Below, piece by piece: positions 4,103 to 24,672 of a stretch of 24,672 nt of DNA. Within the stretch, counting starts at the first letter, position 1; the number at the start of each line of letters is the position of its first letter. The notes beneath the pieces were generated by a model. It made no database searches, was not told the DNA's origin, and saw nothing but the letters and a program-made list of their open reading frames with translations. Source of the DNA: a virus. Position numbers and translations under genes: made by a program. The DNA lies in the IMG/VR virus record IMGVR_UViG_3300027810_000064, positions 1 to 24,672 of that record; one strand, written 5' to 3'.

Positions 4103-4659
4103 AAATAATAGGATTAAGCGGGAAGAAGCAGTCCGGTAAGGACACCGTCTACAGTATAGCCTCGGACATCTTGGCTCCACCTGTAGGGAGGGTAGGTTTT
4201 GCCGACGCTCTGAAGCAAGAGGTGAGTGAAGCTACAGGGTTTCGAGTAGAGTTTATCGAGGAACACAAGACAGAGTTCAGGAGTCTCCTTCAGGTATGGG
4301 GGACTGACTTCAGGCGACACTTCTCTGGGACTGAGTATTGGATTGAACAGATGGATGAAGTGATTACCTCTGTTAATAACAAGTATAAGTATCTGTTCAT
4401 CACCGACGTTCGTTTCGAGAACGAGGCTGAGTTCATCAAGCAACGAGGCGGCTCAGTCATCAGGGTCGAGAGGAGGCAGCAAGTCTACAAGACCATTCAG
4501 GAAGCAACCGTGGACATTGACGTCCATGTTTCCGAAACAAATATGAATGACTATTCTGGCTACGATTACGTCATCAACAACAACGGTTCTGAAAAAGACT
4601 TACAAAAATCAGTCAGATCCATGTTAGAAACTTTGAACATTTTAGAAAATGCCGCTTGA
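4099..4659 (+). CDS. Deoxynucleoside monophosphate kinase
   Basis: A 186-aa P-loop kinase predicted to phosphorylate dNMPs to dNDPs, so nucleotides from degraded host DNA can be reused for phage replication. The N-terminal P-loop is GLSGKKQSGKDT (G8 to T16), with the Asp between Lys and Thr typical of phage dNMP kinases such as T4 gp1. FADALKQEV, LLQVWGTDFRRH and ITDVRFENEAEFIK match the base- and phosphate-binding segments of this family; the last is the characteristic DVRxxNE motif. The gene overlaps the exonuclease stop (ATGA at 4099-4102), making a tight replication/salvage operon, and overlaps the next small gene by 11 nt. T4 gp1 is longer (about 241 aa), but phage members near 190 aa are common. 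Confidence 0.9.
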   Translation: MKIIGLSGKKQSGKDTVYSIASDILAPPVGRVGFADALKQEVSEATGFRVEFIEEHKTEFRSLLQVWGTDFRRHFSGTEYWIEQMDEVITSVNNKYKYLFITDVRFENEAEFIKQRGGSVIRVERRQQVYKTIQEATVDIDVHVSETNMNDYSGYDYVINNNGSEKDLQKSVRSMLETLNILENAA

Positions 4660-4849
4660 ACTTCCTCTAAATTCTGCTAATGAGAAGTTGCCTCCGGTCA
4701 CCGAGGAGCTTATCGTTTGGTTGCGAAATGTTTTTCCTGACAGGATGCCTGATGTATCGGATGATCTTACTGACATAAGATATAAACAAGGGCAAGTGGC
4801 TGTAGTTAAAACGCTTACGAGCATACATAATGAGTTAAGGAGCAATTAA
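4649..4849 (+). CDS. Small conserved-type phage protein of unknown function
   Basis: A 66-aa acidic soluble protein, with no membrane segment or signal peptide. Its core PPVTEELIVWLRNVFPDRMP, followed by YKQGQVAVVKTL and a short helix, looks like a small protein often found just before the portal region in T7-like phages of aquatic bacteria; this is a recollection of pattern, not a database result. It overlaps the kinase gene by 11 nt and has no clear Shine-Dalgarno, so it is probably coupled to the kinase. The following gene starts 1 nt after its stop. An ORF on the opposite strand covers almost the same bases but lacks context. No function is assigned. Confidence 0.7.
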   Translation: MPLELPLNSANEKLPPVTEELIVWLRNVFPDRMPDVSDDLTDIRYKQGQVAVVKTLTSIHNELRSN

Positions 4850-4850
4850 A

Positions 4851-5072
4851 ATGTGTCTAGCTAGAAAACCAGTAACATTGCCACAAAAGGCGTTCGCAAA
4901 GGCCCCGGATCAGCCTAATATATTAGCCGAGGTCACTCGTAAACCCACTAGGCTTGCGGCTAAGGGTAAACCGAAACGACGCGGGTCATCACGGAAGAGT
5001 CTTGTAGTCGCCCCCTCAGGAATCAACCCCTCTTCCGCTGGAGGTGGGTCTAATGTTTACGGGAATGTATGA
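4851..5072 (+). CDS. gp7.3-like small basic virion protein
   Basis: A 73-aa basic protein lying directly before the portal gene, where T7 encodes gp7.3. The second half is Lys/Arg-rich (LAAKGKPKRRGSSRKSLVVA) followed by a Gly/Ser tail ending SAGGGSNVYGNV. T7 gp7.3 ends in a comparable GGKKSLSVA segment plus a Gly-rich tail. In T7, gp7.3 is a minor virion protein needed for infectivity and ejected early. The start has AAGGAG 8 nt upstream (4837-4842), one of the better ribosome sites here. The stop overlaps the portal start (ATGA at 5069-5072). The homology call rests on a short motif plus position, so it is moderate. Confidence 0.6.
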   Translation: MCLARKPVTLPQKAFAKAPDQPNILAEVTRKPTRLAAKGKPKRRGSSRKSLVVAPSGINPSSAGGGSNVYGNV

Positions 5073-6658
5073 AAGTTGGAACGCTTAACTCCTATTATCA
5101 AGCCTGCGAAAATGCGAGAGACCCTTATTTACGTCGGGGTAGGGATGCTGCAAGCCTTACTATTCCTTACCTTGTTCCTCCCGATAGCAATAATTCTAAC
5201 ACTAATTACGTTACTCCCTTTCAAGGCGTGGGAGCCAGAGGGGTAAACAACTTAGCGTCGAAGCTGCTATTAGCTCTACTTCCTCCTAACTCTCCCTTCT
5301 TTCGGCTGATCATTGACCCATTTGAGTTCGCCAAGGAGGGGCAACAGGAAGAGGGCCTGAAGACTGAACTGGAGAAGGCTCTGGCTGAGATTGAGCGAGC
5401 CGTTCAGAGTGAGGTGGAGACATCTTCCATTCGTGTCGGTGTGTTCGAGGCCTTAAAGCAACTGATTGTCGCTGGCAATGTACTGCTCTACATCCCCGAT
5501 AAGGGAGGCCTTCGTGTATTTAACTTGGATCGCTATGTTTCTAAGCGAGACCCAATGGGAAACATCCAATCGATTATCGTTAAGGAATCAATCGATCCTG
5601 ATGTTCTGCCTCAGTCTGTCCGAGCAATCCTTGAAGAAGCAGGGAACCCTTCGGTCAGTACAATGGGGGCTTCGCAAGAGAAGACCGTCGATGTTTATAC
5701 TGGAATCTACAGGAGTGAAGGGAAGTGGGAGGTCAGGCAAGAGGTTGCTGACATTAACATACCTGAAGCTGAAGGTTCCTACCCCCTAGACAAGAATCCT
5801 TGGATGCCTTTACGGTACACAAGAATTGAGAATGAAGATTATGGTAGAGGCTTTATCGAGGAATACATGGGAGACCTTCAATCCCTTGAAGGGTTGACCC
5901 AAGCTATTGTCGAAGGTGCTGCAGCCGCTGCAAAAGTATTATTCCTAGTAAATCCAAATGGAACCACACGCCCACGGGTTATATCTACTGCCCCTAACGG
6001 TGCTATTGTTCAAGGCAACGCCGCCGACGTTACGGTCTTACAGATGGAAAAGTTTGCCGACTTCAGGGTGGCTCAAGAAACTGTAAGAGATATTAAGGAG
6101 AGACTTGGCTTTGCCTTTCTCATGAACACTTCGATCCAGAGGCAGGGTGAGAGGGTGACGGCTGAAGAGATTAGATTCATGGCTCAAGAGCTTGAAGATG
6201 TTCTCGGAGGGGTGTACAGCATCCTGTCACAAGAGTTTCAGATGCCTTTAGTTAATAGACTAATGGATCGAATGTCCAAAGCAGGGAGGCTCCCCGCGTT
6301 ACCTAAGAAGATTGTCAAACCAACCATTGTAACAGGCTTGGAGGCACTCGGAAGAGGTCACGATCTCAATAAGCTGGACAGTTTTGTATCAGGAGCTTCC
6401 CAATTATTGGGTGATCAATTTGCGACCTACGTAAATATGAGCGATTACCTAAAGAGAAGAGCGACTTCGCTAGGCATTGATGTTGAGGGTCTTGTCAGAA
6501 CTGAAGAAGAAATACAAATGGAACAACAACAGATGGCTCAACAAGCAATGGCTCAGCAAGTAGCACCTAACGTAGCAAACGCCGCCGGTAAGATGGCTCA
6601 AGAAGACCCTGAGAAACTAGCATCTATGACTCAAGCGGCTCAACAAATGGCACAATAA
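5069..6658 (+). CDS. Portal protein / head-tail connector (T7 gp8-like)
   Basis: A 529-aa portal protein, the dodecameric ring at the unique capsid vertex through which DNA is packaged and ejected and onto which the tail assembles. The family signature GVGARGVNNLASKLLLALLP is at residues 53-72, preceded by TNYVTPFQ. Further typical segments are VAGNVLLYIPDKGGLRVFNL, RYTRIENEDYGRGFIEEYMG and QRQGERVTAEEIRFMAQELED. The C-terminus is Gln/Ala/Met-rich, as in other gp8 proteins. Length matches T7 gp8 (about 536 aa). It begins by ATGA overlap with the gp7.3-like gene, and the scaffold gene starts 3 nt after its stop. Confidence 0.97.
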   Translation: MKVGTLNSYYQACENARDPYLRRGRDAASLTIPYLVPPDSNNSNTNYVTPFQGVGARGVNNLASKLLLALLPPNSPFFRLIIDPFEFAKEGQQEEGLKTELEKALAEIERAVQSEVETSSIRVGVFEALKQLIVAGNVLLYIPDKGGLRVFNLDRYVSKRDPMGNIQSIIVKESIDPDVLPQSVRAILEEAGNPSVSTMGASQEKTVDVYTGIYRSEGKWEVRQEVADINIPEAEGSYPLDKNPWMPLRYTRIENEDYGRGFIEEYMGDLQSLEGLTQAIVEGAAAAAKVLFLVNPNGTTRPRVISTAPNGAIVQGNAADVTVLQMEKFADFRVAQETVRDIKERLGFAFLMNTSIQRQGERVTAEEIRFMAQELEDVLGGVYSILSQEFQMPLVNRLMDRMSKAGRLPALPKKIVKPTIVTGLEALGRGHDLNKLDSFVSGASQLLGDQFATYVNMSDYLKRRATSLGIDVEGLVRTEEEIQMEQQQMAQQAMAQQVAPNVANAAGKMAQEDPEKLASMTQAAQQMAQ

Positions 6659-6661
6659 AAT

Positions 6662-7396
6662 ATGGGAGAAACACAGACCGTATCGCTAAGTGATACACCG
6701 ACCGGCCCTGATGCACCTGAAACAGAAGCTCAAGAAGCACCAGAGGAAAATAAAGAGCAAGAACAGCAGCAAGAGGAGCAACCGTCAGAGCGACCTGACT
6801 GGCTTCCTCCAAAATTCAACAACGCAGAAGACCTTGCCAGAGCCTACGGGCAGCTTGAAAGGAAGCTGTCTTCCCAAGATGCAGAGGCAAAAGGACTCCT
6901 TACTGAGGAAGATTTTTCCAGCTACTCAGATGAGTATAACAGGGAGGGGGAGCTAAGTGATGACGCTTATAAGACCTTAGAAAAGAAGGGATTGTCACGT
7001 GACTTAGTAGACAACTACATCAAGGGTCAGGAGATGCAGCGGACACACCAGCTAGACGGGATGTATTCTTTGGCTGGAGGAGAGGAGCAGTACAGCACTA
7101 TGATTAAGTGGGCTGCTGAAAATCTCCCTCAGGATGAGCTAGATTCTTATAACCTAGCTGTTCAAGGTGATCTCGGTGTAGCTAAACTGGCCATAAGAGC
7201 TTTGCATTCTCAGTTTAATCAAGCTGGTCAGGGGACTAACCCTCAGTTAGTCCAAGGTGGTAAAGCCCCCAGCGTGATTGGCTATGGTTCTACCTACGAA
7301 ATGCAACAGGACATGAAAGACCCACGCTACAAGGCTGGGGATACTACTTGGCATGCTCACGTTGAGAGGCGTTTAGCTGCCACCAACAACAACTAA
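6662..7396 (+). CDS. Capsid assembly scaffolding protein (T7 gp9-like)
   Basis: A 244-aa acidic scaffold that guides procapsid assembly and then leaves the head. The first 45 residues are very rich in Glu, Gln and Pro, as in gp9 proteins. The conserved PDWLPPKFNNAEDLARAYGQ segment follows, then a helical middle and a basic end (HVERRLAATNNN) that probably contacts the capsid protein. T7 gp9 is about 307 aa, so this one is short but complete. It sits between portal and capsid as expected, though four small genes separate it from the capsid gene. The start has no Shine-Dalgarno and follows an A-rich stop region (aataaaat). It ends with tandem stops TAA TAG before the next gene. Confidence 0.93.
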   Translation: MGETQTVSLSDTPTGPDAPETEAQEAPEENKEQEQQQEEQPSERPDWLPPKFNNAEDLARAYGQLERKLSSQDAEAKGLLTEEDFSSYSDEYNREGELSDDAYKTLEKKGLSRDLVDNYIKGQEMQRTHQLDGMYSLAGGEEQYSTMIKWAAENLPQDELDSYNLAVQGDLGVAKLAIRALHSQFNQAGQGTNPQLVQGGKAPSVIGYGSTYEMQQDMKDPRYKAGDTTWHAHVERRLAATNNN

Positions 7397-7399
7397 TAG

Positions 7400-7732
7400 A
7401 TGAAGAAAAAACTAATCGTTATCGGTGTGTTCTTGTCTTTGACATTGAGCGCAAGTGCGAACGGAAAGAAGCCGAGTGCCTTCGGGGCTGGGCTGAAACC
7501 ATCACCTCACGTGACCCTGTTTGGGCAGAAACTGTCTTGGCCTATCCCTTCCCTATGTCTGGGGAAAGCGGCTGGGGTGAACCCAGATTTCGGGGTTTCA
7601 TCAGACGGGTTCAAGCTTAAGCTGCCTTACATTGCCCTCGATATCCCCTTTCCGTCCCTGTTTTTAGGAACAAAGGACAAGAAGGTGGAGGTCAAGATAG
7701 GGTCAATCGACAAATCGAAACACACACGCTGA
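7400..7732 (+). CDS. Small exported protein of unknown function
   Basis: A 110-aa protein with a clear Sec signal peptide: MKKK, a hydrophobic core IVIGVFLSLTL, and a cleavage site ASA|NG at residues 20-21. The mature part of about 90 aa is basic and rich in Pro, Leu and Lys, with no further membrane segment. It contains two similar motifs, IPSLCLG (49-55) and FPSLFLG (84-90), each after a hydrophobic run, which suggests an internal duplication. It lies between scaffold and holin and its stop overlaps the holin start (TGATG at 7730-7734), so it probably belongs with the lysis or envelope genes. No Shine-Dalgarno is visible. I do not recognise the family. A periplasmic role in lysis or in blocking superinfection is possible but unproven. 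Confidence 0.72.
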   Translation: MKKKLIVIGVFLSLTLSASANGKKPSAFGAGLKPSPHVTLFGQKLSWPIPSLCLGKAAGVNPDFGVSSDGFKLKLPYIALDIPFPSLFLGTKDKKVEVKIGSIDKSKHTR

Positions 7733-8004
7733 TGCCTGATACCCAACCAACCGTCCACCGAGTTCTACATGAGTATGCAACGGTTAAGAAACCGGGATAT
7801 AAATCCACCGAGTTCTACATGAGTATGCTGGCTGTGGTCATTGGGGCTGTTGCTTCCTCTGGAATACTGGAGGGAAGTGATGGTTTGACCAAGGTTGTTG
7901 GCCTTGTTATGGCTGCTTTGGTAGCCCTAGGCTATACAGGTTCTCGTTTGACCCTCAAGAAACTGGATGCAGCTAATGGTAACGGCACTACTGGCAATTC
8001 TTAG
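7732..8004 (+). CDS. Holin (two-TM, class II type)
   Basis: A 90-aa protein with two predicted membrane helices, about residues 28-45 (FYMSMLAVVIGAVASSG) and 52-70 (LTKVVGLVMAALVALGYTG), joined by a short loop. Basic residues precede the first and follow the second. The segment KPGYKSTEF before TM1 and GYTGSRLTLKK after TM2 resemble a holin family common in aquatic phages and prophages, in which KPG-x-K-T-T-E-F and GY-x-x-SR recur. A holin would permeabilise the inner membrane at lysis and release the lysozyme encoded downstream. The start overlaps the upstream stop (TGATG) without a Shine-Dalgarno. Residues 8-16 and 25-33 are encoded by two identical 25-bp repeats read in different frames. 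In-frame Met30 and Met32 could be alternative starts. Confidence 0.72.
   Translation: MPDTQPTVHRVLHEYATVKKPGYKSTEFYMSMLAVVIGAVASSGILEGSDGLTKVVGLVMAALVALGYTGSRLTLKKLDAANGNGTTGNS
7754..7778 (+). repeat. 25-bp direct repeat, copy 1
   Basis: The bases from tccaccgagt to gagtatgc are identical to those at 7804-7828, 50 bp downstream. The offset is not a multiple of three, so the two copies are read in different frames of the same holin gene. This copy encodes VHRVLHEYA. Confidence 0.97.
7804..7828 (+). repeat. 25-bp direct repeat, copy 2
   Basis: An exact copy of 7754-7778. Here it is read as STEFYMSM(L), leading into the first membrane helix of the holin. The flanking bases differ on both sides, so the identity ends sharply at 25 bp. 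Confidence 0.97.
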
Positions 8005-8149
8005 GGAAATACTTAAGCTACTCTTGGAAGATGCTGCAACACCTGTTAAAGCAACGGTTGCTCCCGCTATTCCTCGCAAGCTACGTGACGCTTGGAAGCA
8101 GCGGATGCTTGACAAGTGGGAAAAAAGTAGTCTTCATTCCAACAAGTGA
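7967..8149 (+). CDS. Small amphipathic membrane-active or spanin-like protein
   Basis: A 60-aa ORF overlapping the holin gene by 38 nt and containing, out of frame, the start of the next gene. The N-terminus MVTALLAILREILKLLLED (from the ATG at 7976, the more likely start) is a strongly hydrophobic or amphipathic helix. A Pro/Ala linker follows, then a basic, helical tail (RKLRDAWKQRMLDKWEK). The overlap with a downstream signal-bearing ORF recalls Rz/Rz1 spanin pairs, where the inner-membrane subunit gene contains the outer-membrane lipoprotein gene in the +1 frame. However, the protein is much shorter than usual Rz. Neither start has a convincing Shine-Dalgarno, so coupling to the holin is likely. 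The gene is probably real because of its composition and tight fit, but its role is inferred. Confidence 0.5.
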   Translation: MQLMVTALLAILREILKLLLEDAATPVKATVAPAIPRKLRDAWKQRMLDKWEKSSLHSNK

Positions 8150-8294
8150 CACGCTGGTTCGTTTAGGGCCAGATGTCAAAGGCCGTGTATACCATTGGAA
8201 TGGTACTGAGTGGGAACTCTCTAAAAACAGAGTCACTCTACCTGAAGGATGGTTAGCGGGGCCTTTAGATTTACCTGAAGGGGACGCTGAATAG
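8031..8294 (+). CDS. Putative lipoprotein (possible o-spanin), overlapping gene
   Basis: An 87-aa protein with a lipoprotein-type N-terminus: basic HLLKQR, hydrophobic LLPLFLASYVTLG, and a lipobox-like SSGC with C26 as the likely lipidated residue. The Ser at -3 is not ideal. The mature 62 aa are soluble, with GRVYHWNGTEWELSKNR and TLPEGWLAGPLDLPEG, a segment I recall from small phage proteins near holins. The first 119 nt overlap the preceding small ORF in another frame. GGAAG directly abuts the ATG with no spacer, so initiation may depend on coupling. By position after the holin it could be the outer-membrane spanin, or a lipoprotein that blocks superinfection. There is no proline-rich stretch like that of lambda Rz1. 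Confidence 0.62.
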   Translation: MLQHLLKQRLLPLFLASYVTLGSSGCLTSGKKVVFIPTSDTLVRLGPDVKGRVYHWNGTEWELSKNRVTLPEGWLAGPLDLPEGDAE

Positions 8295-23800: not shown

Positions 23801-24672
23801 CTTCAGACAGGCAGACGGCAGTCTAGGCAAGGCGCAACTCATCGATGGTAACACTAACCACGCTGCTGGTACTTATGCTGCTGCCAAGAAGGCGTTCCAC
23901 TCAGGCAAAAGTGTACTGGAATCTAGAAGTCAGTTATTCGACGTCACACCACACCAAGCTATAAATAGAGAGTTGCTCCCTGAATCAGCTTCTGAGTTAG
24001 CTAAGGATTCTCTGGATTACCTCGGTAATATTATACGTATCCCCAGTCGTTTCATGATTGCTACTGATGAAGTCTTCAAACAGATACAGTATAGATCAGC
24101 ATCTTTAGCAAAACTAACACAAGAGGCACTAGAGAATCTACCGAAGTCAAAGCACAATACGGAAGAGATGACCCAGTATATCGCTGCTCGTTTCCAAGGT
24201 TTGATCAGAGGTAATGGGGCTCGTTATACTCCCAAGGCAGTTGAAGACGAGGCAATGACTAATTTCTACAGGGCTGTAGCACGTTCTGAAGAAACTGGGG
24301 AAGCCATGCCTAAGGAAATGCTTAAGCGAGATGACTATGTTGCTGGTTATTTTGCTAAAAACTATAAGAAAGACAAAGAGGTTCTTGCTGATTTCGCGAT
24401 GGATTGGGCTGAAGATACTACCTTCACTAGGGGGTTGGATGTTGATCTACTCCGTATGCAAGAGCATGGACACCTTCAGGGTAAGAAGAGCGTTAACAAG
24501 GCTGTACAGGATTTTGTAGCTGACCACTCCTTCATGAGGATTATGGCTCCATTCGTTAGGACGCCTGTTCAGCTAGTTAGTTTCCCACTACGTAGGATAT
24601 GGCTACCTGATTCCGTCATGCGGGGTATTATAAATAAACCAGACGGGTGGTTGAAGAAAACCCACTTACGAT
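20874..24672 (+). CDS. Internal virion protein D / DNA-ejection protein (T7 gp16-like), 3' partial
   Basis: This frame is open from the ATG at 20874 to the window edge, at least 1266 codons with no stop; T7 gp16 is 1318 aa. It starts 1 nt after the gp15 stop, with no Shine-Dalgarno. Segments recalling the large ejection proteins of T7-like marine phages are RGSAADFLAFDGSE (from 146), RIPSRFMIATDEVFKQIQY (from R1055) and MAPFVRTPVQLVSFPLRRIW (from about 1224). Residues about 245-372 are Ala/Glu/Lys-rich and probably coiled coil. The T7 N-terminal transglycosylase domain is not visible: no Glu-Ser-Arg-type catalytic motif or LGMMQ-type motif occurs in the first 200 residues. The protein probably spans the cell envelope during DNA entry. 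The C-terminus is outside the window. Confidence 0.88.
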   Translation, partial: MPIDTGQFGDEERSRSQVTSDAYNRLAGRYNEDYYHEQAARNREGYWMQKLASAGRGGLKLIENTVNLPTDLAGFPKLIEPTKAIERREGWQNHLLENVVDYAGAFIGTGKIKWLKDVGKIEGLKKGARATNKEKLKGAAISGLARGSAADFLAFDGSESLVLSLLDLHPELHQPYDKITAVPGWENMSAAELEAATYGAGWSAKRLAANWGGRMFNAGEGAFIQSFLQVFWKAAKIKFNNDKMTIKAGEGLDPKIQEGVDKTAAVEKKRRKAFIDPDKDLTPKQRQEKAAWTHASQKDAASATEDLAKKTEAEEMALEKAKADLASAGEAAKGKEGKLHEAAESDTLAPRAWDDAEEAIAAEKQGATARSAEDGIDDGVFELTGRTRHSKDYNPHVETVEQVARKDEGYGTPLAPKASPIYHYSEEVADKAGILVDTGRLRQVWDFFHEEDTIKMLWRNESIPHGRMRKSEFWTDGPPKGRGAGVSRNYDRAAFNSFDEFQAFVIARGKAEIKYPLLKGESLPTYHNRLDKAAANTLKRQGLGNFWKYELDPVKGMKQFQVDLDTYLKRLFNNTDEAKSILADLKLLKEGKAVNLNEIFLRAQKILNIDSTMTDSHLKYFTSRIMHFFMKNMRDGFGKVTSHSKHDQLASAIQWMGEGSSRKSAKDWIQDDLLNHIDNIARANKLSPQGVIERIRSGRGDFKDLWPGMKIPETPLLKSMLEDVKVTQELYIRTWAYRLNTVAVMKKFDLAVDRVIREGDEAADGVVSNKSYAEMAVEIEKVERHLHAFRNLGTAHGRNLASMKALHSAGLGGPAAEKEILEEIIGRGGGTKGLQQLAVRLKAVRDAHGGTGSEGSAFIQKDVLHKTVTGIDVHNEYWLNSILSGGRTQIVNAIGTLLHLVLKPVEGALGTLGRDPKNRKYFISQGVYAANLIFDTMKFTTVMMKNRTQKAVGSIDEKQYMQKREDMLSPVQESQSFRQADGSLGKAQLIDGNTNHAAGTYAAAKKAFHSGKSVLESRSQLFDVTPHQAINRELLPESASELAKDSLDYLGNIIRIPSRFMIATDEVFKQIQYRSASLAKLTQEALENLPKSKHNTEEMTQYIAARFQGLIRGNGARYTPKAVEDEAMTNFYRAVARSEETGEAMPKEMLKRDDYVAGYFAKNYKKDKEVLADFAMDWAEDTTFTRGLDVDLLRMQEHGHLQGKKSVNKAVQDFVADHSFMRIMAPFVRTPVQLVSFPLRRIWLPDSVMRGIINKPDGWLKKTHLR

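Follow-up and report, generated by a model that had tools for sequence, protein, structure and literature searches.

How does a small phage gene come to hold the same 25 bases twice, read in two different frames? The question is raised by a locus in the metagenomic virus record IMGVR_UViG_3300027810_000064, analysed here from position 1 to position 24,672 (24,672 bases; this whole stretch of DNA is called the window). The window appears to be a podovirus-like phage fragment, and its gene order points to a T7-like podovirus. It encodes a DnaB-like helicase and a family A DNA polymerase, together with a head-tail adaptor, a head assembly/scaffold protein, a major head protein, a large tail protein, a second tail protein and a lysozyme-like endolysin. 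A search for named relatives among 50,697 phage records gave no match, either by DNA or by protein.

The repeat lies in a small, tentatively holin-like gene

The ORF that carries the repeat (7732-8004, + strand) sits between the scaffold and the major head genes, beside two other small ORFs, and its start overlaps the stop codon of the upstream gene (TGATG). It encodes a protein of 90 aa with hydropathy peaks at residues ~25-50 and ~49-74, as expected of a holin of the two-helix type, a small protein with two membrane helices. The predicted structure, which is of low confidence (mean pLDDT 63, pTM 0.30), places helices at residues 24-42 and 50-82 and leaves the N-terminal tail uncertain, with residues 1-20 modelled at a pLDDT of ~48. 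The description of the gene draws on the called ORF, the family alignment, the hydropathy profile and the low-confidence model.

In the family-model scans the window ORF gave no Pfam match at E≤0.1 and no PHROG match at E≤0.001. When 27 members of its family were compared with PHROG, four holin families were matched by 5, 4, 4 and 2 members, respectively, all weakly (best E 0.004), and 13 of the 27 members weakly matched a "superinfection exclusion" family (best E 0.02). The name "holin" is therefore used tentatively, since the window ORF has no significant family match and just some of its relatives weakly match holin families. No paper on this gene family was found among the open-access papers searched.

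The neighbouring ORFs are also small. Directly before the holin-like gene, a 110-aa ORF with a signal-like N-terminus (7400-7732, + strand) has relatives in 24 loci and matched no family model. Downstream lie two small overlapping ORFs (7967-8149 and 8031-8294, both + strand), a pair reminiscent of the Rz/Rz1 spanins; the family-model scans matched neither ORF to spanins or to any other family. The ORF at 8031-8294 has a hydrophobic start followed by a lipobox-like LGSSGC, and it is conserved in 29 loci.

A perfect 25-base repeat read in two codon phases

The two copies, at 7754-7778 (copy 1) and 7804-7828 (copy 2) on the + strand, are identical at 25 of 25 positions (100%), with a start-to-start offset of 50 bases. 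Their edges are abrupt, as the 10 bases flanking the copies on the left agree at 1 position out of 10 and so do the 10 bases on the right. A search for the 25-mer allowing up to 3 mismatches returned these two matches alone in the whole window and none in 100 shuffled sequences, so that no such repeat is expected by chance; the pair is also the sole one of at least 18 bases at 100% identity in the window. Two inverted pairs of 13 bases at 92% identity occur near the site, neither of them suggestively placed with respect to the repeat.

Relative to the ORF that begins at 7732, the codon phase at the first base is 1 for copy 1 and 0 for copy 2, so that the former reads (V)HRVLHEY(A) and the latter STEFYMSM(L). 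The third frame of the 25-base unit contains a stop codon, leaving a single alternative frame open. The perfect repeat with its abrupt ends and its offset of 50, as well as the reading of one unit as VHRVLHEYA and of the other as STEFYMSML, had been described in an earlier reading of these bases (the sequence-only reading) and were reproduced in full.

Copy 2 belongs to the family and copy 1 to the window

In order to establish which copy is the older one, the N-terminus of the window protein, MPDTQPTVHRVLHEYATVKKPGYKSTEFYMSM, was compared with those of its closest relatives, MPDTQLTVPVVNEAVKKPGYKSTEFYMSM (L007), MPDTKLSVPVVGETVKKPGYKSTEFYMSM (L004) and MPKTKLTVPVVNETVKKPGYKSTEFYMSM (L023), taken from the 52 loci that an IMG/VR scan with the holin-like protein had returned. 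The start codon and the first residues (MPDT...) are common to the window and the close relatives, whose pattern, MPDT.xTVPVVNETVKKPGYKSTEFYMSM, is 9 bases shorter than that of the window. The difference falls between the "TV"-like residues and TVKKPGYK, where the closest relatives have 5 codons (PVVNE-like) and the window has 8 (HRVLHEYA), the latter being the stretch supplied by copy 1. Copy 2 encodes the family motif KPGYKSTEFYMSM, and 24 of its 25 bases are found exactly in one other contig (L023/L055). The 25 bases between the copies (7779-7803, + strand), which encode (A)TVKKPGYK, are the part conserved at the DNA level: this spacer, AACGGTTAAGAAACCGGGATATAAA, is nearly unchanged in 12 aligned relatives and is ancestral.

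We then surveyed 101 loci (all except L053, which is the window itself) together with the window for a second copy upstream of the motif. The motif was matched, with 60 or more bases upstream of it, in 68 loci, representing 34 distinct sequences, while the other 33 gave no row, the motif being absent or altered or the upstream sequence too short. The longest exact match between a sequence's own copy-2 segment and its 150 upstream bases did not exceed 8 bases in any of the 34 distinct relatives, against 25 in the window. Judged by these alignments, copy 2 is the ancestral source and copy 1 is derived. An old repeat shared by the group was rejected, as not one of these 34 carries copy 1; conservation of both copies in distant relatives, which would have spoken against a recent origin, was looked for among them and found in none.

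These comparisons agree with the assignment of copy 2 to the conserved holin-family motif in the sequence-only reading, and they divide its further proposal that copy 1 is an out-of-frame duplication which supplied a new N-terminus. Copy 1 is indeed derived and out of frame, but the start codon and the MPDT residues were already there in the close relatives, so that what changed is an internal stretch of the tail. In distant relatives the tails are quite different, or the protein begins almost at the KPGYK motif, and the N-terminal tail is therefore a variable, partly dispensable part of the protein; it is probably disordered.

A probable origin of copy 1 by templated replacement

A plain tandem duplication was rejected, since such an event makes one junction and would duplicate the spacer, whereas the window has a single 25-base spacer, which is ancestral. 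The segment was copied, as the word "duplication" in the sequence-only reading implies, but not simply so, as a new junction lies at each end of copy 1.

We consider instead, with a probability of roughly 80%, that copy 1 arose recently by a single self-templated replacement in the course of replication, through template switching or serial slippage. According to this model, the growing strand would leave its place at ~7754-7756 while the N-terminal part of the gene was being copied, would copy ~22-25 bases from the motif region, which in the ancestor lay ~41 bases ahead, and would rejoin the ancestral template at AACGG (7779). In all, ~13 of the old bases would be lost and about 22 gained, and the downstream reading frame is kept because the net change of +9 is divisible by three. 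The pasted piece, being read in another frame, would put HRVLHEYA in the place of PVVNE, turning 5 codons of the tail into 8. Such a change would be tolerated, and be neutral or nearly so, because of its position in the variable and probably disordered N-terminal tail. The perfect identity of the two copies suggests a recent event, although a stretch of 25 bases dates it loosely.

The new segment is identical to a template only 50 bases away, and its junctions show little homology, 1 to 3 bases on the left (T or TCC) and none on the right. The value on the left hinges on the third base of one codon in the ancestor, where the 12 aligned relatives have G, A or T; the ancestor is a proxy, since the nearest relatives that cover the site have ~75-76% DNA identity to the window over long stretches.

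The same sequence could also have been reached in two steps: the 50 bases 7779-7828 would first have been duplicated in tandem, and a deletion of 41 bases would then have taken out the first copy of the spacer together with the ancestral bases next to it. This route yields exactly the observed sequence (+50 -41 = +9) with the frame restored, and, if the ancestor read GTC CCG, as may be inferred from the alignment of 12 relatives, the deletion would fall between TCC repeats. However, it needs two events rather than one, and its intermediate is frameshifted: when the 50-base tandem duplication was built in the proxy L007, the reading frame stopped before the first hydrophobic helix, so that the intermediate would probably have lost the protein. 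For these reasons we regard the two-step route as unlikely.

We also weighed whether the repeat could be an artefact, produced during library preparation or metagenome assembly, since the window is a single metagenomic virus record. Exact searches with the 25-mer and with two flanking stretches found no other contig in the public set scanned, a result that says little here, as records close to the window may be missing from the collection. The one near-identical contig, L054 (IMGVR_UViG_3300046532_000064), aligns to 4400-7681 of the window with 99.8% identity over 3,282 bases and ends at 7681, 72 bases before copy 1; it comes from nearly the same phage and stops short of the repeat. An artefact would nevertheless require a pair of independent false joins, neither of them sharing more than 3 bases. 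Chance would also have had to preserve the reading frame and to steer clear of the stop codon that the other alternative frame contains, which makes this explanation very improbable.

Function and selection

The sequence-only reading had further proposed that the repeat might be a binding site for RNA or protein, and that the copies might offer alternative starts to the holin. Both copies do contain ATGAGTATG, and that of copy 2 lies in the reading frame of the gene, immediately ahead of the first hydrophobic helix, an arrangement that would suit a second translation start of the dual-start holin/antiholin kind. On the other hand, the frame opened by the ATG of copy 1 (ATGAGTATG) runs for 17 codons and then meets TGA, and the Met codons of copy 2 are not kept throughout the family, as L002 reads YLSL there and several distant relatives (L031, L038, L042 and L051) read WLS. 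A binding site or an RNA element made of two copies finds no support either, as none of the 34 distinct relatives has copy 1. A functional repeat of any of these kinds is accordingly the least credible of the explanations that we considered.

A separate matter is whether the re-framed segment, once made, was kept by selection because it alters the cytoplasmic tail of this protein and, with it, the timing of lysis. We hold this to be improbable; if it were true, phage lysis proteins would gain tail variants by out-of-frame copying of their own coding DNA.

Known parallels and local repeats in the group

Frameshifted internal duplication is a source of new protein sequence, and it resembles the event in the window in that a piece of coding DNA has been copied inside its own gene and is translated in a different frame. 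The window differs from it in scale and consequence, since only ~8 codons are involved, these belong to a variable tail, and nothing points to a new function. Among the open-access papers searched, none was found on out-of-frame internal copies in phage genes. Serial replication slippage, in which a strand slips forward and then back on the same template, usually shows microhomology at both junctions. It fits the direct-orientation replacement in the window, where the junctions share 1-3 bases on the left, depending on the ancestor, and 0 on the right. The process is named in the abstract of PMC3597517. Short-range template switching is well described, for instance in great apes (PMC7954356), where a nearby template (within 100 bases) is copied in one event, so that several changes appear grouped together and the sequence often becomes longer. 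As in the window, a short nearby template is copied to a new place in one event; that study, however, concerns great apes and requires a template in reverse orientation, whereas the window belongs to a phage and holds its copy in direct orientation.

The window repeat is an ordinary mutation of a known type, in a new instance. It gives a clean example of a single short copying error that rewrites several residues at once and leaves the frame intact, and it shows why such clusters of changes should be mistaken neither for a series of point mutations nor for a sign of positive selection. Taken alone, it adds little to the knowledge of phages or of lysis.

In order to place it within its group, we searched for exact local repeats of at least 18 bases at offsets of up to 200 in the window and its relatives' loci (103 sequences, of which 55 non-redundant records, 308,655 bases in all, were retained once the overlapping ones had been removed). 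The search returned 12 rows that correspond to 10 arrays, and the window's is the one array whose offset is not divisible by three, a count of 1 in 10 that is no rate, as the window was chosen for its repeat. The offsets of the nine other arrays are all multiples of three, and these lie head to tail but for one. The window repeat, the only one that is both spaced and out of phase, is a recognisable oddity within the group and not a new kind. Among the relatives, short tandem repeats begin at 1218 in L060 (unit of 12 bases), at 2322 in L052 (27 bases) and at 2411 in L069 (15 bases).
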